From: Syntrophales bacterium
GTDB lineage: Bacteria > Desulfobacterota > Syntrophia > Syntrophales > CG2-30-49-12
Length of the DNA stretch: 36,023 nt
Direction: 5' to 3'
Assembly (NCBI GenBank): GCA_030018935.1
Contig: JASEGZ010000018.1
Location: 1 to 36,023, forward strand
Numbering within the stretch: position 1 is the stretch's first letter; the number at the start of each line of letters is the position of its first letter. This document shows, piece after piece, positions 18,377 to 34,483 of this stretch. The notes under the pieces were generated by a model that was not told the DNA's origin, made no database searches, and saw nothing but the letters and a program-made list of their open reading frames with translations. The translations under genes were made by a program, and so were the position numbers.

Positions 18377-18463
18377 TAAGCGTTCAGAGCTGTCAGCGAT
18401 CAGTAATCCCTGGTACCCTTTTTGTTTTTGCTGAAAACTGACGGCTGATAGCTGAACGCTTAT
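18377..18463 (+). repeat. Dispersed extragenic palindromic repeat, copy A
   Basis: An 87-bp element has inverted ends: AAGCGTTCAG at the left and CTGAACGCTT at the right. The interior contains GTCAGCGATCAGTAA and CCCTGGTA. A second copy in opposite orientation lies at 34404-34483. Copy A reaches into the stop codon of the LysR gene, so it may serve as the shared 3' end of thrC-side and LysR-side transcripts. Confidence 0.85.
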
Positions 18464-19380
18464 AATTTATAACCTCTCACAAAATTAAGAAACAAACAAT
18501 GATGGCGCATCAAACTGAATTGCCGGCGATGGATCAGATAGAAACACCTCTCAACCCGGCAACCCTCAATCGGTACTTCCACCACAACCCCCTGTCTCAA
18601 TTCCCGTCCCACGGCATGGATCGAAAGGGCGGAAACACCAAGCCCGGCGATAATGGCCTCTTTCACCGCTTCAGAACTTCCCATTCCACCAACAATATTA
18701 AACTGTGCGAGGCTCATACCTGTATTTTCTTTAAGGTATGTCTCGAGTACTTCCCGTGTTGCCGAGCCCTTCTCCCGGAGAACAAAGGGCTCTCTGGAAA
18801 GTTCATCTAGGGTCACGGGACCTTTACCGGCCCACCGATGACCTCCGGGCACGGCCAGAATAAGCCTGTCTTCCCATAGAGGTTCCACATGCAATTTCCG
18901 ATGCAACGGCTTTTTGCCGATGAAACCGATCTCTGCCTGATTATTCAGGATTATCTCTACGGTTTCTTCAGAGTCGGCAGCCTGGACATTAACCCTGATT
19001 GCCGGATAGATTTTTTTAAAATCACTCAAGACGTAAGGGAGGATATAAGTGGCCGGAATCGTACTGGCACCGATATAGATGCTGCCGGATTCGTTTTCGC
19101 GAATCTGCAAGATCTTCTCCTTCGCCTCCTCTCTCAGTTTTATGATCCTCCTGGCGTAATCGTAGAGAATCTTCCCCTCCGGTGTTAAGGATACTCCCCC
19201 ATTTCCACGGTTGACGAGCCTGATACCGAGGGAATCCTCCATATTTTTGATGTGCTTGGTGAGGGCAGGCTGGGTGAGAAACAACTTTTTAGCCGCACGG
19301 CTGAAGCTCCCTTCGGCAATCAGTTGCACGAGGGATTCCATCTGGTGGATCGTAATGTTCTTAAATACGTCGTAACTCAC
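18460..19380 (-). CDS. LysR-family regulator, selenium-metabolism type
   Basis: This 306-residue LysR-type transcription factor has an N-terminal winged helix-turn-helix (about residues 11-70, with GSFSRAAKKLFLTQPALTKH) and a periplasmic-binding-like effector domain containing GASTIPATYILP. Such CysB/CysL-like regulators are regularly found beside yedE/yedF selenium genes, and this one diverges from yedE. The start is GTG 19380 with GGAGG seven bases upstream. Its ligand is unknown; sulfur or selenium anions are plausible from the CysB relationship. The stop codon falls inside a dispersed repeat. Confidence 0.88.
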   Translation of the reverse strand: MSYDVFKNITIHQMESLVQLIAEGSFSRAAKKLFLTQPALTKHIKNMEDSLGIRLVNRGNGGVSLTPEGKILYDYARRIIKLREEAKEKILQIRENESGSIYIGASTIPATYILPYVLSDFKKIYPAIRVNVQAADSEETVEIILNNQAEIGFIGKKPLHRKLHVEPLWEDRLILAVPGGHRWAGKGPVTLDELSREPFVLREKGSATREVLETYLKENTGMSLAQFNIVGGMGSSEAVKEAIIAGLGVSALSIHAVGRELRQGVVVEVPIEGCRVERCFYLIHRRQFSLMRHHCLFLNFVRGYKL

Positions 19381-19642: not shown

Positions 19643-20722
19643 ATGATGGACAGATTCTGGACACCGAAAACGTGGATAATTCTGGGAGGTTTCATCTTCG
19701 GAATACTCGCCACTCTGCTCACGAAGTGGGGAAATCCGGCAAACATGGGCATCTGCGTGGCCTGCTTCTACCGTGATATGGCAGGGGGAATTGGGCTGCA
19801 CCGGGCGGAGGTAGTGCAGTATATCCGGCCGGAGATCATCGGCTTTGTATTCGGCGCCTTTTTCTCCGCTTATGCCTTCAGGGAATTCAAACCGCGGGGA
19901 GGTTCCTCCCCACTGGTACGTTTCTTTCTCGGCGCCTTCTTCATGATCGGCGCCCTGGTCTTCCTGGGCTGCCCCGTGAGAGCCTTGATAAGGCTTGCCG
20001 GAGGCGACCTCAACGGCATTACCGCCCTTTTAGGGATAATTCTGGGGGCAGTTGTTGGCATTCAGTTCCTCAAGGGCGGCTTTAACCTGGGACGGTCAGG
20101 CAAGGCATCAATGCTGCCGGCTCTTATTATACCGCTGGTAATGGTGGTTCTCCTCCTCCTGCTCATCTTCAAACTTCCCTTCATCAATTTCAGTCTGAAG
20201 GGACCCGGGTCGCAACATGCCCCTCTTCTCATTTCACTCCTCGCCGGGATTGTTGTGGGCTTCATTGCCCAGAAGACCAGGATGTGCTTCGTGGGAGGGT
20301 GGAGAGACATTATGCTGGTCAGGGACTTCTATCTCGTGAGCGGCATTGCCGCCTTCTTTGTGGGCGTATTGCTGTCCAATTATCTCCTGGGTAATTTTTC
20401 CTCGGGCCTTTACCACTGGGGTTTTATAAATCAACCAATTGCCCACAACAATCACCTCTGGAATTTCTTAGGGATGACCTTAGCGGGACTGACGGCGACA
20501 CTGTTGGGAGGGTGCCCCCTGCGCCAGACAATCCTGGCGGGTGAAGGTGATACCGATGCGGGAATTACCGTACTTGGCCTCATCGCCGGCGCCGCCCTTT
20601 CCCATAATTTCCTGCTCGCCTCGAGCCCTAAAGGCCCGAGTGGATTCGGACCAGTAGCGGTAATTATCGGCCTGGTATTCTGTCTGTTTGTTGGCTTTTC
20701 CATGGTGGAAAGGGAAAGGTAG
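19643..20722 (+). CDS. yedE: YedE-family putative selenium transporter
   Basis: This 359-residue membrane protein of the YeeE/YedE family is expected to move selenium or sulfur species across the inner membrane. It is an internal duplication: the first half carries GICVACFYRD and FLGCPVRAL, the second RMCFVGGWRD and LLGGCPLRQT. This gives the four conserved membrane cysteines typical of thiosulfate/selenium transporters of this fold. About ten hydrophobic helices are visible. It is the first gene of the plus-strand selenium run and faces the LysR gene. The start could be ATG 19643 or 19646. Confidence 0.92.
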   Translation: MMDRFWTPKTWIILGGFIFGILATLLTKWGNPANMGICVACFYRDMAGGIGLHRAEVVQYIRPEIIGFVFGAFFSAYAFREFKPRGGSSPLVRFFLGAFFMIGALVFLGCPVRALIRLAGGDLNGITALLGIILGAVVGIQFLKGGFNLGRSGKASMLPALIIPLVMVVLLLLLIFKLPFINFSLKGPGSQHAPLLISLLAGIVVGFIAQKTRMCFVGGWRDIMLVRDFYLVSGIAAFFVGVLLSNYLLGNFSSGLYHWGFINQPIAHNNHLWNFLGMTLAGLTATLLGGCPLRQTILAGEGDTDAGITVLGLIAGAALSHNFLLASSPKGPSGFGPVAVIIGLVFCLFVGFSMVERER

Positions 20723-20723
20723 T

Positions 20724-21263
20724 ATGGAGGTCTTCGGTAAAAATAAAAAAGAAGGCTTCGAAGGCGGAGGTCTTATCCTCTTTCGGAGCGTGGAAGAGGC
20801 GATCAAAGCGGAAAAGGTCCTCAAAGCGGCTGACTACATGGTCAGGCTGGTTGCCCCTCCTCCTGAACTCAGGAAGGGGTGTGATCTCGCCCTGGAGATC
20901 GCCCTCATTGAACAGACAGGGATAGAGAGACTGTTCAGGGAAAAGGATGTCTATTATGTCGAGATTATTCCCAGGAAGGGGAGCGGAGATCTCCTCGAGA
21001 TCGTGAAGGTCAAAGATTTCGGAGAGGCCATCATGGTCAAAGCGGGAAACATGAAACTCACCTTTGACAAAAACTCAGGGGTCATTCTGAATATCTCCGG
21101 GGGTGGTTGCCCTGACATCCCCTATCTCCATGCCGGGCTGATAGATAAAAAGCTCGCCGAGGCAATAAGACCGAGGGAAAGAGGCTTCACCCTCTGCGCT
21201 CTGATGCTGGATAGGGCTTTTTGCGAGTCTCTCGAAATCTGGAATCGTATGGAGAAACACTGA
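20724..21263 (+). CDS. DUF3343-containing protein (putative Se/S carrier-like)
   Basis: This is a 179-residue soluble protein. Residues about 14-75 match the DUF3343 pattern (LILFRSVEEAIKAEKVLKAA and RLVAPPPELRKGCDLALEI), a small ferredoxin-like domain often encoded with yedE/yedF and proposed as a selenium/sulfur carrier. The remaining 100 residues, with a SGGGCPDIPYLHAGL stretch and further cysteines, are an extension I do not recognise. ATG 20724 begins two bases after the yedE stop, with AAAGG upstream; the longer frame from 20688 overlaps yedE and is less likely. The stop overlaps the next start by one base (TGATG). Confidence 0.82.
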   Translation: MEVFGKNKKEGFEGGGLILFRSVEEAIKAEKVLKAADYMVRLVAPPPELRKGCDLALEIALIEQTGIERLFREKDVYYVEIIPRKGSGDLLEIVKVKDFGEAIMVKAGNMKLTFDKNSGVILNISGGGCPDIPYLHAGLIDKKLAEAIRPRERGFTLCALMLDRAFCESLEIWNRMEKH

Positions 21264-22159
21264 TGCTTATCTGCGGAACGATTCCCTGGGAGGACTTTTC
21301 CCTGAGTATGGGTGCGGTAAAATTTTCCGGTAAATCTCTGATCTTTAATGACAGAGAGATTCCCTGCCTCCAGGGGACGGCTGCCCTCATCGGCGCTGCC
21401 TGTGTAACGGCTGAATATCTCGAAGAGAAACCCCCTCAAGCCCTCCTTGTCGGCGACAGGGGAACGGGAAAGGGAAGCCGGTTACTCTATGAATACCTGA
21501 GCAAAAATCTCCCCACCCTTGTACCCGATGTCCTGGTACTCCACTACATCCTTCCCGTCATGGGTTTGATGAGGAAGGTATGTGAATCTGCGGAGAGATG
21601 CCGTCAGAAGCCGGTCATGATTGCCGATGCCTCCTCCATGTATGCAGCCAAGGCGGCAGGTCTCGCCCAGAGATTTGACATTTTCACCCCGGATGCCTGC
21701 GAGATGGCTTTCCTGGCCGATCCAGATGCGACCCACCCCGCCTACATCAGCAGACACCTCTTTGACAGCGATATCACAAAGACCCCTGAACTGGTGGCAA
21801 AGGCATATCAGAACGGGAGCGCCACGAGGTTGTTACTCGTCAAAGGTTCAATTGATTACATAGTGAAAGAAGGAAAAATATTAGAAACCATCTCCGCACC
21901 GGACATCCCCTCCCTGGAAGCCATCGGAGGCACCGGTGATACGATTACCGGCATGGTGGCCGCCTTCGCCTCTGCCGGGCTGGAATTACACGAGGCGGCA
22001 ATTCTGGCGGCAAGGGCAAATCGTACGGCCGGGGAGTATGCCCAGGCAACGCCGGCAACGAGGATCTGGGAAATTATCGCTCAATTTCCCGCTGTCTTCA
22101 GGGAATACCTGTGCGCCCGGAGCGGGGTTTGTTATGCAGTGAGAGATGGCGGTCTTTAG
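21263..22159 (+). CDS. Ribokinase-fold protein, NAD(P)HX dehydratase-like
   Basis: This 298-residue protein resembles the ADP/ATP-dependent NAD(P)HX dehydratase (YjeF C-terminal, ribokinase-like) family. The GGTGDTITGM motif near residue 225 is the typical anion-hole/phosphate loop, and VLHYILPVMGLMRKV plus PDACEMAFLADPDA correspond to the substrate side. The N terminus (MLICGTIPWEDFSL) is unlike standard enzymes. It is translationally coupled to the DUF3343 gene and lies 38 bases before the tRNA gene. A selenium-related small-molecule kinase is possible; no substrate can be assigned. Confidence 0.7.
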   Translation: MLICGTIPWEDFSLSMGAVKFSGKSLIFNDREIPCLQGTAALIGAACVTAEYLEEKPPQALLVGDRGTGKGSRLLYEYLSKNLPTLVPDVLVLHYILPVMGLMRKVCESAERCRQKPVMIADASSMYAAKAAGLAQRFDIFTPDACEMAFLADPDATHPAYISRHLFDSDITKTPELVAKAYQNGSATRLLLVKGSIDYIVKEGKILETISAPDIPSLEAIGGTGDTITGMVAAFASAGLELHEAAILAARANRTAGEYAQATPATRIWEIIAQFPAVFREYLCARSGVCYAVRDGGL

Positions 22160-22197
22160 ATGAGAAGAATTGGCCAATTTAAACATTGATAAAGAAG

Positions 22198-22290
22198 GGC
22201 CGGTTGAGGGAGCCGGTGCTTCCCGCGGGCTGCAAACCCGTTGAGGATACTGAGCAAGGATCCTGGTCGGTTCGACTCCGAATCCGGCCT
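22198..22290 (+). tRNA. tRNA-Cys(GCA) with tRNA-Sec-like structure (8/4 type)
   Basis: I fold this by hand. The acceptor 22198-22205 pairs with 22282-22289, eight positions with one U-U mismatch. The linker is GA. The D arm is 22208-22224 with a 6-bp stem (GGGAGC against GC-U-UCCC, one bulged U) and a CGGT loop. The anticodon arm is 22225-22241 with loop CTGCAAA, giving anticodon GCA (22232-22234). A long variable arm has AGGAT (22244-22248) pairing with ATCCT (22260-22264). The T arm is 22267-22281 with a 4-bp TCGG/CCGA stem and TTCGACT loop. Base 73 is T (22290), the cysteine discriminator; CCA is not encoded. The D stem, variable arm and 8-nt acceptor are those of tRNA-Sec, yet the anticodon and U73 are those of cysteine. 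The flanking GAAG and TTC could extend the helix. Confidence 0.85.
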
Positions 22291-22422
22291 TCCGACAAAA
22301 ATAGAGATATGTTGCTACGTCATCCGACAGCACATAAGAGGACAGTTATCCCCCTCCTGTGGGAAGCAGAAAGGGGTCGAGGAGTGATTTTTAAGAGGAG
22401 ATAAAAGCAAAGGAGGTACAAG

Positions 22423-23166
22423 GTGAGTACAGGGAAACCGTGGTATGCCACGGTAAAGCTTCCACCGGGGAAAGTTCATCAACTCGACACCGATCTTAAT
22501 AAGCTTTTCGCCGGCCTGGAGAATGTGGGTATCGGGCCCCGGTATGTGGGTGAGATACGGAAGGGGCAATGGTATGCAGAGCTGGGCGGCCCCAAGCATG
22601 AGTACAAAAGTTACATTTTTGTGGAAGTAGTGGGAGATCCTGAAGAAGTAATGGACGGTAGGGTCGAAGTCATTGGTCCGGAGCTGGACGAACTGGCCCC
22701 AGAGACCTCCCTTCCCTTTGCCGCTCATATTAAGGCATGGGGTCCCCAACTATCGGATGACCTGTTGGAGTTTGTGGAACGAGGGGCGGTGATGGGCTTT
22801 CTCTTCACCGAGGGGTGGGGTCTGGTCGGCGCCCGCACTAACATGTGGTTGCGGGTGAGTAAGGAAGTTAAACCGAGGATGAGCTGGCTGAAGATGGCCC
22901 AGATCATGCGGGCCAATATGATTTCCCTCTGTCCGCTGGTGGAAAAGGTGGAGATAAAATTGGAGGTCGCCGACGTTATTCCTGAAGAGGTATACGACAA
23001 AATCGCCACAGAGGAAGATGTCGTTGACCCCGCTGATCTGGAGGTTTGGCTCAGGGAGAAGAAGCATCCTGTTGTAGAGAAATACTGGAAAGATAGCAAG
23101 CCGGTCCCGCTGAAGATACCAATGCCCAACCATCCTTGGGAAGACGAGATGTGGGAAGAAAAGTGA
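22423..23166 (+). CDS. Orphan acetyl-CoA synthase central-domain-like protein
   Basis: This 247-residue protein matches, by eye, only the middle domain of acetyl-CoA synthase/CdhC-type beta subunits. The order of blocks is the same as in AcsB: IGPRYVGEIRKGQWYAELGG, then DGRVEVIGPELDEL, then LEFVERGAVMGFLFTEG, then MWLRVSKEV and the VEKVEIKLEV strand. The N-terminal CO-tunnel domain and the C-terminal A-cluster domain with its cysteines are absent, and only one cysteine (SLCPLVEK) is visible, so it cannot hold an A cluster. The start is GTG 22423 with AAGGAGG upstream. It lies 132 bases after the unusual tRNA, on the same strand. It may be a docking or redox-partner protein; the function is unknown. 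Confidence 0.72.
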   Translation: MSTGKPWYATVKLPPGKVHQLDTDLNKLFAGLENVGIGPRYVGEIRKGQWYAELGGPKHEYKSYIFVEVVGDPEEVMDGRVEVIGPELDELAPETSLPFAAHIKAWGPQLSDDLLEFVERGAVMGFLFTEGWGLVGARTNMWLRVSKEVKPRMSWLKMAQIMRANMISLCPLVEKVEIKLEVADVIPEEVYDKIATEEDVVDPADLEVWLREKKHPVVEKYWKDSKPVPLKIPMPNHPWEDEMWEEK

Positions 23167-23238: not shown

Positions 23239-23454
23239 ATGAAATACGGCGCCAGAAATCAACTTGCGGGAGAAGTAGTTGAAATTAAGGAAGGAACTGT
23301 AATGTGCCAGGTGAAGGTAAATCTCCCCGCCGAGAGCACGGCATCCTCGGTGATGACCATGGATTCCCTGCGTGAGCTCGGTATAAAAAGGGGTGATAAA
23401 GTAAAGGTGATCATCAAGGCGGTAAATGTTCTCCTGGTGAAGGAGGAAATCTAA
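23239..23454 (+). CDS. TOBE-domain (molbindin/Mop-like) protein
   Basis: This 71-residue protein consists of a single TOBE/Mop domain: SARNQ-like start ARNQLAGEVVEIKEG, then the SVMTMDSLRELGIKRGDKV turn and the final VKVIIKAVNVLLVKE strand. Free-standing molbindins bind molybdate or tungstate and act in storage or homeostasis. Its place in a selenium cluster suggests supply of Mo/W to a selenium- or tungsten-dependent enzyme. The gene lies between the ACS-like and TusA-like genes. Confidence 0.9.
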   Translation: MKYGARNQLAGEVVEIKEGTVMCQVKVNLPAESTASSVMTMDSLRELGIKRGDKVKVIIKAVNVLLVKEEI

Positions 23455-23473: not shown

Positions 23474-23692
23474 ATGGTTGAGGTGGATGCGAGGGGTCTC
23501 GGTTGTCCCATCCCGGTGGTGAAAACAAAAAAAGCGATGGAGGCAGACCCTGACGAACAGATAGCGGTCCTTGTAGAGACTGCTGTGGCAAAGGAAAATG
23601 TATCCCGACTTGCCGAAAGCAGAAACTATTCTATTGAGGTAGAAGAGGCAGCCGGCGACGAGTATCGTCTGTTGCTTACACCCCGGAAATAG
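23474..23692 (+). CDS. TusA-like sulfurtransferase domain protein
   Basis: This 72-residue SirA/TusA-fold protein has the motif DARGLGCPIPVVKTKKAM at the N terminus, with the reactive cysteine in the GCP motif. TusA-like proteins carry persulfide, or possibly perselenide, sulfur between enzymes. It starts 19 bases after the TOBE gene and ends 10 bases before yedF, so it is co-transcribed with both. Next to YedE and YedF, a selenium-carrier role is a reasonable inference, but TusA-type sulfur relay is equally consistent. Confidence 0.9.
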   Translation: MVEVDARGLGCPIPVVKTKKAMEADPDEQIAVLVETAVAKENVSRLAESRNYSIEVEEAAGDEYRLLLTPRK

Positions 23693-23702
23693 GGGAAAGG
23701 AG

Positions 23703-24296
23703 ATGGGCAGAGAGGTTGATGCGAGGGGCCTTGCTTGTCCCTTACCGGTGATCAGAACCAGAGAGGCACTGGCTGAGGTAACAGAGGGCACAGTTACCGT
23801 TCTCGTGGACAATCCTGAGAGCAGGGAAAATGTACGGAGATTTGCCGTAAGCCAGGGGTGTGAGGTAGTCGTTTCGGAGGGAGAGGGCATTTTCTGCATA
23901 GAAATTACCAAGCCCCCCGGGGAGGGAGGTGAAAGGGCAAGGGTTGAAGCCATAAGGGCAGGTGGGGATGTTGTCTGCATCACCACCGATCGGTTTGGGA
24001 CGGGAAGCGAAGAACTGGGGAGGATACTGATGAATGCCTTTCTCAACACCATCTGGGATTACCACCCCAGACCGACGAAGTTACTTTTTATAAACGCTGG
24101 TGTCATGTTGACCACCGAGGGCTCTGAGGTCTTGGAGGCACTGGAACTCCTTGAGAGAGAAGGGGTGGATATCTTCTCCTGTGGCACCTGTCTGGGATAC
24201 TACGGGATAAAGGATAAACTGAGAGTTGGTAAGGTCACCAATATGTATGAGATAGTTGATGCCCTTCTTAGCGGGGGCAGAGTAATAAACATTTAG
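23703..24296 (+). CDS. yedF: YedF-like selenium-metabolism sulfurtransferase protein
   Basis: This 197-residue two-domain protein has a TusA-like domain (residues 1-75, motif DARGLACPLPVIRTREAL). A DsrE-like domain follows (about 85-197) with FINAGVMLTTEGSEV and IFSCGTCLGYYG. The C-terminal CGTC pair is characteristic of the YedF type that co-occurs with YedE and selenium-utilising genes. It is probably the sulfur/selenium relay partner of the YedE transporter. The next gene, a porin, is separated by a region with two hairpins. Confidence 0.93.
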   Translation: MGREVDARGLACPLPVIRTREALAEVTEGTVTVLVDNPESRENVRRFAVSQGCEVVVSEGEGIFCIEITKPPGEGGERARVEAIRAGGDVVCITTDRFGTGSEELGRILMNAFLNTIWDYHPRPTKLLFINAGVMLTTEGSEVLEALELLEREGVDIFSCGTCLGYYGIKDKLRVGKVTNMYEIVDALLSGGRVINI

Positions 24297-24382: not shown

Positions 24383-24408
24383 GCAAAGGGTTTTGTGTGC
24401 CCCTTTGC
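24383..24408 (+). promoter_or_regulatory. Second hairpin upstream of the porin gene
   Basis: GCAAAGGG (24383-24390) pairs perfectly with CCCTTTGC (24401-24408) around a 10-base loop. It directly follows the larger hairpin and precedes the porin ribosome-binding site by about 55 bases. The two hairpins together look like a segmental-expression or attenuation element. Confidence 0.6.
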
Positions 24409-24470
24409 ATCTCAAATTTTACTTAAATCCCTCCCCAAAATCAAACCAAATAATTAGAGGAGGAAGAGCA

Positions 24471-25727
24471 ATGGGAAGAGCAATGGGATTAATTATCCTG
24501 ATAGGGGCGATCCTTATCTGGGCAGCTCCGGTAAACGCCTTAGACACAGAAGAGAAGATCATGGCGCTGGAGAAAAAAGTAAGTGATCTGGAGGGTAAGC
24601 TTCCGGGACAAACCTCATCCCTTGAGCAGGTAACCAGGTTTATGGAAGAGCACAAACTAAAGGCCGGCCTGTGGTTACAGGCATGGTATCAGTTTGTGGA
24701 AGATGGAAAAAACAATGGCAATGATGATCTGCATGATTTTATGTTCCGGAGGTTTTACTTTTATCTCAAGGGAGAGGCTACTCCCCAGTTGGGATTCTTT
24801 GCCCATATCGCCGGCGATCGCATCGGTCAGGAGGGCTTAAATGACTCCGGCCAGGGTCTCGGAAGTGGTATCGCCGTCCGGGATGGATGGATCTATTACA
24901 ACTTCCATGAGTCCTTTAAGGTCCAGATGGGGAGGATGTATCCCCCTTTCACCAGGAATTACGGCACAACCTCAACCAAGGCCCTGCTGACCGTTGACCT
25001 CCCCTTTACACAGGGGGGGGTGAGGGGTGGAATCTTCTATGCCAGCAAGGTAGGACGGGATGATGGGGTAGTCCTCTGGGGCAACCCTTTTGCCGGTCTG
25101 CTTCAGTACCGCCTCGGTATATCGGAAGGGGTGGAAGGTGCTGAAAACCCTGATGATAGTTTAAGATTCACCGGCAGGCTCTCCCTCAACCTGTTAGAGC
25201 CTGAGACCTCCTGGTTCAACCAGGGGACATATCTGGGGAAGAAAAAGGTACTTGCCATAGGAGCTGGCTTCGACCGCCAGAATGACATCAAATTCGGAAC
25301 CAATCAGCGGGACAATACCGCCTGGACGGTGGATCTCTTCTTCGATCATCCCGTAGGAGAAGGGGCGCTGACCATGGAGGCCGCCTATATAGATGTGAAA
25401 AACGTAACCCAAAGTTTATCATTTAGCCGACTTGTCAGTGGAGATGATGCCCAGATCTACTATATCCAGGGTGGCTATCTCATCCCGGGTAAGATCGGTC
25501 CAGGGAGGTTTCAGCCCTATTTCCGTTATGAGAGGCTCGCAGTGGATAAAAAACCTGACACGGTCTTCCCCTCTGTGGGGGTCAATTACTACCTCAAAGG
25601 CCACGATGCCAAATTAACCCTCGACTGGACATTGGTTGACCAGCGGGAAGAGGTGAAAAATTTCCGGGGTAATTGGAGCGGGGAGGACCAAAACCTGGTT
25701 ACCTTACAGTTTCAGGTAGGAATTTAA
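24471..25727 (+). CDS. Outer-membrane porin with coiled-coil N terminus
   Basis: This 418-residue protein has a signal peptide (MGRAMGLIILIGAILIWAAPVNA, cleavage expected after Ala). A short coiled coil follows (EEKIMALEKKVSDLEGKL), then alternating amphipathic strands with many aromatic girdle residues up to a C-terminal FQVGI. This fits an OprP/OprO-like, 16-18 strand porin. Porins of this kind sit in selenite/tellurite-linked ext operons of Geobacter, and the location in a selenium cluster makes an anion channel for selenium oxyanions a sensible guess. ATG 24471 has GAGGAGG upstream; the longer frame from 24393 is unlikely. Confidence 0.82.
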   Translation: MGRAMGLIILIGAILIWAAPVNALDTEEKIMALEKKVSDLEGKLPGQTSSLEQVTRFMEEHKLKAGLWLQAWYQFVEDGKNNGNDDLHDFMFRRFYFYLKGEATPQLGFFAHIAGDRIGQEGLNDSGQGLGSGIAVRDGWIYYNFHESFKVQMGRMYPPFTRNYGTTSTKALLTVDLPFTQGGVRGGIFYASKVGRDDGVVLWGNPFAGLLQYRLGISEGVEGAENPDDSLRFTGRLSLNLLEPETSWFNQGTYLGKKKVLAIGAGFDRQNDIKFGTNQRDNTAWTVDLFFDHPVGEGALTMEAAYIDVKNVTQSLSFSRLVSGDDAQIYYIQGGYLIPGKIGPGRFQPYFRYERLAVDKKPDTVFPSVGVNYYLKGHDAKLTLDWTLVDQREEVKNFRGNWSGEDQNLVTLQFQVGI

Positions 25728-25855
25728 ATCCTCTCAAGGAATTACAGCGGAAGATCGGAGAGAGAATGTCTGCCGATGGGCACAGGATAGGAGAGCAGAA
25801 AAATCATCTTTACTGTTAGCCTCGCAGTTAAATAACTGTCTTGGCGGGAGGACGT

Positions 25856-27130
25856 ATGGGCGATTATACCGAGATGTGGAAAGGATTGGGGCTGAACCTT
25901 GCGAGACATGAACAACCGTTAAATGCCTTGGGGGCGATCTATACAGATGTCTATATAAGCCAGAAGGACCGTCCCCAGGGGATGGGGTATTTCGATTTTG
26001 TCATGTCCGAGGTCCACGGATTGAGGGTCAAGGAGCTTTTAGACCACAAGGAAAAAGGGGGCAAGGTCGTGGGGACCTTCTGTCTCTATGTCCCCGATGA
26101 GGTCATCCTCGCCGCGGGGGGAGTGAGCGTGGGTCTCTGCGGGGGGGCGCAGTTTTCCGTCCCCGACGCCGAGACCGTATTACCGAGAAACCTCTGTCCC
26201 CTGATCAAGTCTTTCTTTGGTTTCAAGCTCTCCCTGGTCTGCCCCTACTTCGAGGCGGCCGATTTCGTGGTAGGGGAGACCACCTGTGACGGTAAGAAGA
26301 AGGCATGGGAACTTCTCGATAATTATATCCCCACCTATGTGATGGAGATTCCCCAGATGAAACGGGAGATTGACAGGAACCTCTGGCTTCACGAAATCAA
26401 GGCCTTTGCGGAAAAGATGGAGAAGGAGGCAGGTGTTAAAATAACCCCGGAGACCCTGGAGGAGAAGATCAAACTCGTTAACGAAAAACGGAAGTCAATA
26501 GGGAGGGTCTTTGAGGCACGTAAGGCAACTCCTTCTCCCATCAGTGGGAAGGATGCCTTACTGATATGCCAGATTGCCTTCTATGACGACCCGGAGAGGT
26601 TTACCGCTAAAGTCAATGAACTCTGTGATGAATTGGAGAAAAGGATCGGAGAGGAAAAGGGAGTATTTGACAGAGGCACACCGAGGATACTTATTGCCGG
26701 TTGTCCGATGGCCATACCAAACTGGAAACTCCATCATCTCATAGAAAACAGTGGAGGGGTGGCCGTCTGTGAGGAAAGCTGTGTAGGCACCAGGTACTTC
26801 ACCAATATGGTGGAGGAAGGACGTCCCACCACAGAGGAAAAACTGAGGGCCATTGCCGAACGTTATCTTAAGATAAACTGCAGTTGTTTTACTCCGAATG
26901 ACGAAAGGATTGAACAGATTCTCCAATATTGCAGAGACTATAACGCTGCCGGTGTAATCCACTACACCCTCCAGTTCTGCCATACGTATAAGGTGGAGTT
27001 TGTTAGGGTGAGGGAAGCACTCCATAAGGCAGATATCCCTCTACTGGAGATCGAAACGGACTACAGCGAAGGTGATGCGGGACAATTGAAGACGAGGGTG
27101 GAGGCGTTTATCGAACAGATCTCAATGTGA
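25856..27130 (+). CDS. 2-hydroxyacyl-CoA dehydratase-family / double-cubane-cluster reductase
   Basis: This 424-residue protein is of the HgdB/BcrC superfamily. Cysteines fall in the pattern of double-cubane-cluster proteins (YjiM-like): Cys76 in GTFCLYVP, Cys144 in ETTCDGKKK, Cys305 and Cys309 in CEESCVGTRY, Cys342/344 in NCSCFTPN, and Cys375 in LQFCHTYK. Members reduce difficult substrates using low-potential electrons from an ATP-driven activase (HgdC/YjiL type). No activase gene is in the window. ATG 25856 has GGGAGG five bases upstream; the TTG at 25841 is less good. It is the last gene of the selenium run, 128 bases after the porin. The substrate is unknown; it need not be a CoA ester. 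Confidence 0.85.
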   Translation: MGDYTEMWKGLGLNLARHEQPLNALGAIYTDVYISQKDRPQGMGYFDFVMSEVHGLRVKELLDHKEKGGKVVGTFCLYVPDEVILAAGGVSVGLCGGAQFSVPDAETVLPRNLCPLIKSFFGFKLSLVCPYFEAADFVVGETTCDGKKKAWELLDNYIPTYVMEIPQMKREIDRNLWLHEIKAFAEKMEKEAGVKITPETLEEKIKLVNEKRKSIGRVFEARKATPSPISGKDALLICQIAFYDDPERFTAKVNELCDELEKRIGEEKGVFDRGTPRILIAGCPMAIPNWKLHHLIENSGGVAVCEESCVGTRYFTNMVEEGRPTTEEKLRAIAERYLKINCSCFTPNDERIEQILQYCRDYNAAGVIHYTLQFCHTYKVEFVRVREALHKADIPLLEIETDYSEGDAGQLKTRVEAFIEQISM

Positions 27131-34403: not shown

Positions 34404-34483
34404 AGCTGTCAGTCTTCAGCTTTCAGCGAAAAAAGAAAGATACCAGGGGTTACTGATCGCTGATCGCTGACGGCTGAACGCTT
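34404..34483 (-). repeat. Dispersed extragenic palindromic repeat, copy B
   Basis: This element is the reverse-orientation counterpart of 18377-18463. It shares AAGCGTTCAG, GTCAGCGATCAG (here with GATCAG repeated), TAACCCCTGGTA versus TAATCCCTGGTA, and a terminal GCTGAAAGCTGA versus GCTGAAAACTGA. It lies between proB and ogt, which are convergent. Confidence 0.85.

Follow-up and report, generated by a model that had tools for sequence, protein, structure and literature searches.

A cysteine-type tRNA with a tRNA-Sec-like body lies in a selenium-supply operon and belongs to a class that recurs beside selenium genes

The stretch of DNA analysed here (the window; 36,023 nucleotides from a Syntrophales bacterium) carries, within an operon for selenium supply, a tRNA gene that joins cysteine identity elements to a tRNA-Sec-like body. 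The gene belongs to a class, here called class B, which recurs beside selenium-homeostasis genes in several lineages and is distinct from the published selC* tRNAs. Cysteine tRNAs of the selC*-like kind have been known since 2017, and the recurrent location in selenium uptake and trafficking operons is the first concrete physiological context that we found for them. We found no earlier report of this operon association, its novelty being judged against the description of the published class in PMC7609411. The following features of the window were named:

18460 to 19380, minus strand: LysR_Sec, a LysR regulator associated with selenium metabolism, divergent from the operon (NCBIfam NF040786, 286 bits, cut-off 250)
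19643 to 20722, plus strand: YedE, putative selenium transporter (NCBIfam TIGR04112, 483 bits, cut-off 200)
20688 to 21263, plus strand: DUF3343 / Se_S_carrier, putative Se/S carrier (Pfam PF11823, 58.6 bits)
21221 to 22159, plus strand: Carb_kinase (NAD(P)H-hydrate dehydratase-like) protein (Pfam PF01256, 42.7 bits)
22198 to 22290, plus strand: class B tRNA-Cys* (GCA, U73) with tRNA-Sec-like D arm and long variable arm (ARAGORN, Rfam RF01852, class B model R1)
22423 to 23166, plus strand: CdhC-like (acetyl-CoA synthase beta) protein, internally deleted (Pfam PF03598, 71.7 bits)
23239 to 23454, plus strand: small MOP-like protein (blastp to neighbours of other class B loci; family named from sequence)
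23474 to 23692, plus strand: TusA-like sulfurtransferase (about 42-44% identity to the TusA domain of the adjoining YedF)
23703 to 24296, plus strand: YedF, selenium metabolism protein, TusA + DsrE (NCBIfam TIGR03527, 216 bits, cut-off 110)
24393 to 25727, plus strand: ExtI porin of selenite/tellurite reduction operons (NCBIfam NF040900, 168.5 bits, cut-off 150)
25841 to 27130, plus strand: double-cubane-cluster anaerobic reductase, HgdC-like (NCBIfam NF040772, 520 bits, cut-off 350)

The NCBIfam and Pfam assignments confirmed the selenium gene cluster that had been noticed in the original prediction, which was made from the letters of the window. The true start of the DUF3343 gene is probably just 3′ of the YedE stop. 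The Carb_kinase gene stops 38 nt ahead of the tRNA and is held by the same operon in other families. An in-frame deletion at an 8-bp direct repeat (GAGATAAA) has taken ~208 codons from the CdhC-like gene, and with them all A-cluster cysteines; in a sister species, an intact 481-aa CdhC homologue follows the same tRNA. Homologues of the small MOP-like protein were found close to other class B loci, and those of the HgdC-like reductase flank other class B tRNAs. The window also contains a REP-like inverted element with the core AAGCGTTCAGC (18378-18461 and 34473-34483); elements with this core were found at several intergenic sites of the genome, often as hairpins beside genes.

Two programs called a tRNA where the original prediction had placed one. 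ARAGORN reported a tRNA-Cys (GCA) at 22196-22293, the sole tRNA of the window, and the Rfam tRNA-Sec model RF01852 matched 22198-22289 over its full length with 63.7 bits (cut-off 47, E 7e-11), bearing out the proposed tRNA-Sec-like body. The class B model R1 scored the gene with 93.2 bits. The general tRNA model RF00005, which found 42 tRNAs across the genome, missed it. The tRNA is 93 nt long and has the 6-bp D stem, the CGGU loop and the long variable arm that had been described, together with the cysteine identity elements: the anticodon is GCA, in the loop CUGCAAA, and base 73 is U, not the UCA and G73 of tRNA-Sec. Folding of the single sequence was uninformative (z -0.84), as for many tRNAs.

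Comparison with the sister species showed that the 93 nt of the tRNA are 100% identical, whereas third codon positions of YedE are 77% and the 3′ flank 85% identical. Thus, conservation of the tRNA is above chance. The sister species has a second class B copy 6.2 kb downstream of the first, in which one acceptor pair is compensated (C3-G70 to U3-A70) and the variable arm is lengthened but still paired. Judged by these sequence comparisons, the window tRNA is a conserved gene under selection. The second copy itself (L048:13635-17004) has a gene for a CooC-like ATPase on one side and the second CdhC gene on the other.

The window tRNA resembles several tRNA types in part. With bacterial tRNA-Sec (selC, RF01852) it shares the 6-bp D stem, the 4-nt D loop, the long variable arm and a score over the Rfam cut-off; it differs in anticodon and discriminator and, as a member of the class B family, in having a 12-bp branch (7/5) instead of a 13-bp branch (8/5). 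The anticodon loop with GCA, the discriminator U73 and the first three acceptor pairs are identical to those of the genome's own canonical tRNA-Cys, from which the window tRNA is set apart by its length, its long variable arm, its 6-bp D stem and its escape from the general tRNA model. Allo-tRNAs have a type II body that also turned up in tRNA-Sec searches, but theirs is a serine identity on an 8/4 or 9/3 branch (PMC7609411), in contrast to U73 and the 7/5 branch of class B.

The original prediction had described an 8/4 acceptor/T branch. For the window tRNA alone, the 8/4 reading leaves one mismatch (U7.U66) and the 7/5 reading leaves two (U7.U66 and G49.A65). Relatives came from two sources, hits of the tRNA-Sec model and a pattern search through 84,980 species genomes; the latter gave 19 hits, and L113, L119, L126 and probably L122 were dropped as chance or too divergent. 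In the resulting alignment (n = 18), 96.0% of the cells of a 7/5 branch pair and 19 pairs are changed on both sides, values reached in 0/500 shuffles. Pair 49-65 is U-A in 8, C-G in 4, G-C in 4 and other in 2 homologues (paired in 16/18), whereas for the alternative eighth acceptor pair 9/18 have U-A, 9/18 are unpaired and none is compensated. Since pair 49-65 covaries and the eighth acceptor pair is never compensated, the class B family is 7/5, and this covariation ruled out 8/4 as the family structure. The two homologues with 49-65 unpaired are the window tRNA and the copy in its sister species, so that folding the window sequence by hand yields 8/4. The earlier fold is fair for a single sequence but does not describe the family. 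Two members, L132 and L139, have an extra base, with which an 8/5 branch is possible.

The published selC* tRNA-Cys (Mukai et al. 2017, via the review PMC7609411) has cysteine identity on a tRNA-Sec-like body and is found in anaerobes including delta-proteobacteria; its 8/4 branch is modified by an A that bulges from the T stem (A51a). Downstream of selC* there is a selB* in Syntrophobacterales and Desulfobacterales, and in Desulfobacterales also a cysS* (PMC7609411). Loci with a bulged A in the T stem and SelB directly downstream (L114 and L121, also L096; L094 has the same tRNA) matched this description and form our class A. Class B sequences carry the motif GGCCGG or GACCGG, no bulge, anticodon GCA or UCA, and U73 in every sequence. 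The UCA sequences, which also all have U73, were found with the tRNA-Sec model and were therefore not preselected for this base. We set the two classes apart because the window's class has no bulge and covaries as 7/5. Compared with selC* as the review describes it, the window's class shares U73, a GCA or UCA anticodon, the tRNA-Sec-like body and the long variable arm, but has 7/5 instead of 8/4 and no T-stem bulge, and the window tRNA is located in a selenium-supply operon, with no adjoining selB* or cysS*. On these grounds (no A51a bulge, 7/5, no selB* or cysS* neighbour) we rejected assignment of the window tRNA to the published selC*/selB* type. The statement in the original prediction that such tRNAs had been reported holds for the general class, which is in PMC7609411; membership of the window tRNA in the published type was not supported.

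Classes A and B are distinct genes, as both are present within one locus of genome G361 (L168:2419-7091). There, a class A tRNA (UCA), a second SelB, CysRS, SelD and a class B tRNA (GCA) follow in succession on one strand. This CysRS lacks the C-terminal anticodon-binding region, its 436 aa covering positions 2-401 of the 466-position profile; the SelD gene has an in-frame UGA. When 31 genomes were searched for a class B-specific CysRS, a CysRS without the anticodon domain was found only in G361, which also has class A. None was found in genomes with UCA class B, which makes charging of the UCA form uncertain. A fusion of cysteine synthase to CysRS (CysK-CysRS) was rejected as the class B-specific enzyme, since control genomes lacking class B have it just as often. 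The window genome and G014 were searched for a SelB* dedicated to class B and gave none. Further type II tRNAs with U73 fit the two classes poorly: one with GCA in Elusimicrobia (L125:5410-5501), near YedF and a double-cubane reductase, and two with UCA (L086 and L088, in two genomes of family f14).

The window genome has 2.07 Mb and is 96% complete. The original prediction had pointed to a canonical tRNA-Cys, a canonical selC (UCA), selA and selB as genes to look for, and all four were found: selC is on a different contig from the window, as is the one SelB over the cut-off, and SelA is encoded as well. The CysRS copies are full length. Because canonical tRNA-Cys and selC are also in the genome, the window tRNA is an extra tRNA of a Sec-decoding bacterium. 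Besides the standard CysRS, the genome encodes a 776-aa fusion of cysteine synthase to full-length CysRS (L109:1988-4318, on contig G000:C44), a fusion common throughout the phylum and also found in relatives without class B tRNA.

The link between the tRNA and the selenium genes had been left open in the original prediction. We scored a locus as linked if a selenium-homeostasis gene (YedE, DUF3343 carrier, YedF/TusA, LysR_Sec or double-cubane reductase) was within 1.5 kb. This was the case for 20/31 class B loci (21/31 counting one distant LysR hit), compared with 0/30 canonical tRNA-Sec loci and 0/30 ordinary tRNAs of the window genome (Fisher p 2e-8, a statistic that ignores relatedness), confirming a link that recurs across lineages. 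Counted by genus, 12/22 class B lineages are linked and about ten have no selenium gene nearby; the unlinked ones include Planctomycetota, Gemmataceae, one Spirochaetes genome and Thermosulfurimonas dismutans S95. Bacteria with these tRNAs nearly always decode Sec: SelA was found in 21/23 genomes with class B or class-B-like tRNA, from several phyla.

The arrangement of the linked loci varies. In family f14 (same order as the window's), the order is LysR_Sec, divergent YedE, tRNA* (UCA), DUF3343, Carb_kinase and TusA. In another member of the phylum (L160), the tRNA is ahead of DUF3343-Carb_kinase-YedE-TusA, with ~4 nt between the tRNA end and the DUF3343 start region, and in L162 and L127 it is ahead of YedE-YedF. 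The tRNA flanks a double-cubane reductase and its activator in L158, L110, L118, L165 and L167; such a reductase also adjoins the class B tRNA in L120 (Spirochaetota). The gap between YedE and the tRNA is 4 nt in L085 (YedE end 3448, tRNA start 3453). In L092 and L095 the tRNA is between divergent LysR_Sec and YedE; the space between a divergent regulator and its operon is the usual place of a LysR target. These positions and their recurrence in distant bacteria suggest that class B tRNA may be made as part of the cellular response to selenium supply. That the tRNA acts as the leader of a specific gene was rejected, since the downstream genes vary (CdhC, DUF3343, HgdC, YedE and unrelated genes). 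In one complete single-contig genome (G184, 99%), which encodes selC and SelB and has its class B tRNA within a selenium operon, no SelA was found with TIGR00474 and PF03841; two relatives of the same family have SelA. In L120, the double-cubane reductase gene (L120:3711-4346) is missing ~200 internal residues with the frame kept, resembling the CdhC deletion of the window.

Our leading but tentative interpretation is that class B is a second, specialised cysteine tRNA of the selenium-homeostasis regulon, usable where cysteine replaces selenocysteine. The tRNA would be transcribed with the selenium genes under LysR_Sec, mostly when selenium is short. This timing would follow by analogy with Methanococcus, in which LysR_Se/HrsM represses Cys isogenes when selenium is adequate (PMC5322559) and yedE transcripts increase on selenium starvation (PMC11097638). 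CysRS would then charge the tRNA with cysteine, the likely charge because a change of G73 prevents serylation of tRNA-Sec (PMC5330540) and the main cysteine identity lies in the combination of U73 and GCA (PMC7609411). The Sec-like body may admit the tRNA to part of the Sec machinery, so that cysteine replaces selenocysteine. In UCA lineages, Sec UGA codons would receive Cys; the window's GCA form would serve Cys codons, e.g., in the selenoprotein Cys isoforms that the cell produces in that state. GCA has no standard pairing with UGA, and direct Cys-for-Sec exchange in the window thus needs a further assumption. If the Cys-for-Sec reading is true, it would represent a regulated natural change of coding. 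The bolder formulation, that class B as a whole is a regulated selenium-status switch of the code on a Sec tRNA body, with UCA acting at UGA and GCA at the Cys codons of replacement isoforms, seems to us rather doubtful. The missing class B-specific CysRS and dedicated SelB and the fact that about half of the lineages are unlinked count against the simple story.

Other roles were weighed against the same data. The charged tRNA could serve outside translation, with a selenium-cluster enzyme using its cysteine or the charged tRNA itself and the Sec-like body avoiding EF-Tu. Such a use would agree with the lack of a dedicated SelB and with a link to selenium trafficking genes that is kept with both GCA and UCA, suggesting that location outweighs codon. 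We nevertheless consider it unlikely: the tRNA has kept an intact, conserved anticodon arm, a 7/5 branch is what EF-Tu normally accepts, and NCBIfam and Pfam revealed in the window cluster no known enzyme that uses aminoacyl-tRNA, such as a peptide ligase or a Fem-type or GNAT transferase. A more ordinary role, as an extra cysteine isoacceptor for Cys-rich iron-sulfur and nickel enzymes whose Sec-like body is a relic of a tRNA-Sec origin, would explain why the anticodon loop, the discriminator and the first three acceptor pairs match canonical tRNA-Cys, and Cys-rich HgdC and CdhC proteins are among the neighbours. It leaves unexplained the UCA forms at the same operon position, the recurrence beside selenium genes and the co-occurrence with SelA, and we regard it as distinctly unlikely.

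The tight packing with selenium genes and the presence of classes A and B side by side with SelB*, CysRS* and SelD in L168 might instead indicate a regulatory decoy or a sensor of selenium or cysteine status, which, charged or not, would act by binding SelA, SelB or CysRS and would not serve as an adaptor. The tRNA-Sec-like D arm would suit this role, the D arm of tRNA-Sec being the part contacted by SelA. A fully conserved anticodon loop and discriminator would be needless in a decoy, however, which makes this explanation improbable. Least probable of all is selenocysteine salvage, i.e., charging of class B tRNA by CysRS with free selenocysteine, which would be passed on to SelB or removed. 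The cluster does encode selenium uptake and trafficking, selC-independent selenocysteine insertion is reported for E. coli under excess selenium (PMC3636253), and the window genome has the CysK-CysRS fusion. Against this, relatives without class B tRNA have that fusion too, and a GCA anticodon would put Sec at Cys codons.

A role of the window tRNA in making Cys isoforms, as in our leading interpretation, can be compared with the CdhC genes. In the sister species, both class B copies directly precede CdhC genes with Cys codons, and the UGA-containing CdhC paralogue of the window genome has no class B tRNA beside it. This pairing is consistent with a Cys-isoform role in a single genus, that of the window, in which the window's own copy is internally deleted; as a general rule the CdhC link was rejected for this restriction to one genus. 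The paralogue is on another contig (L106:3468-4862, G000:C35) and is CdhC-like; two in-frame TGA codons (TGA-GGG-TGA) encode its residues 314 and 316, and these fall on the Cys-Gly-Cys motif of acetyl-CoA synthase at the distal nickel site. Its product is a putative seleno-acetyl-CoA-synthase-like protein; the selenoproteome reviews that we searched gave no CdhC entry. The TGA-GGG-TGA region folds as a hairpin (z -2.7).
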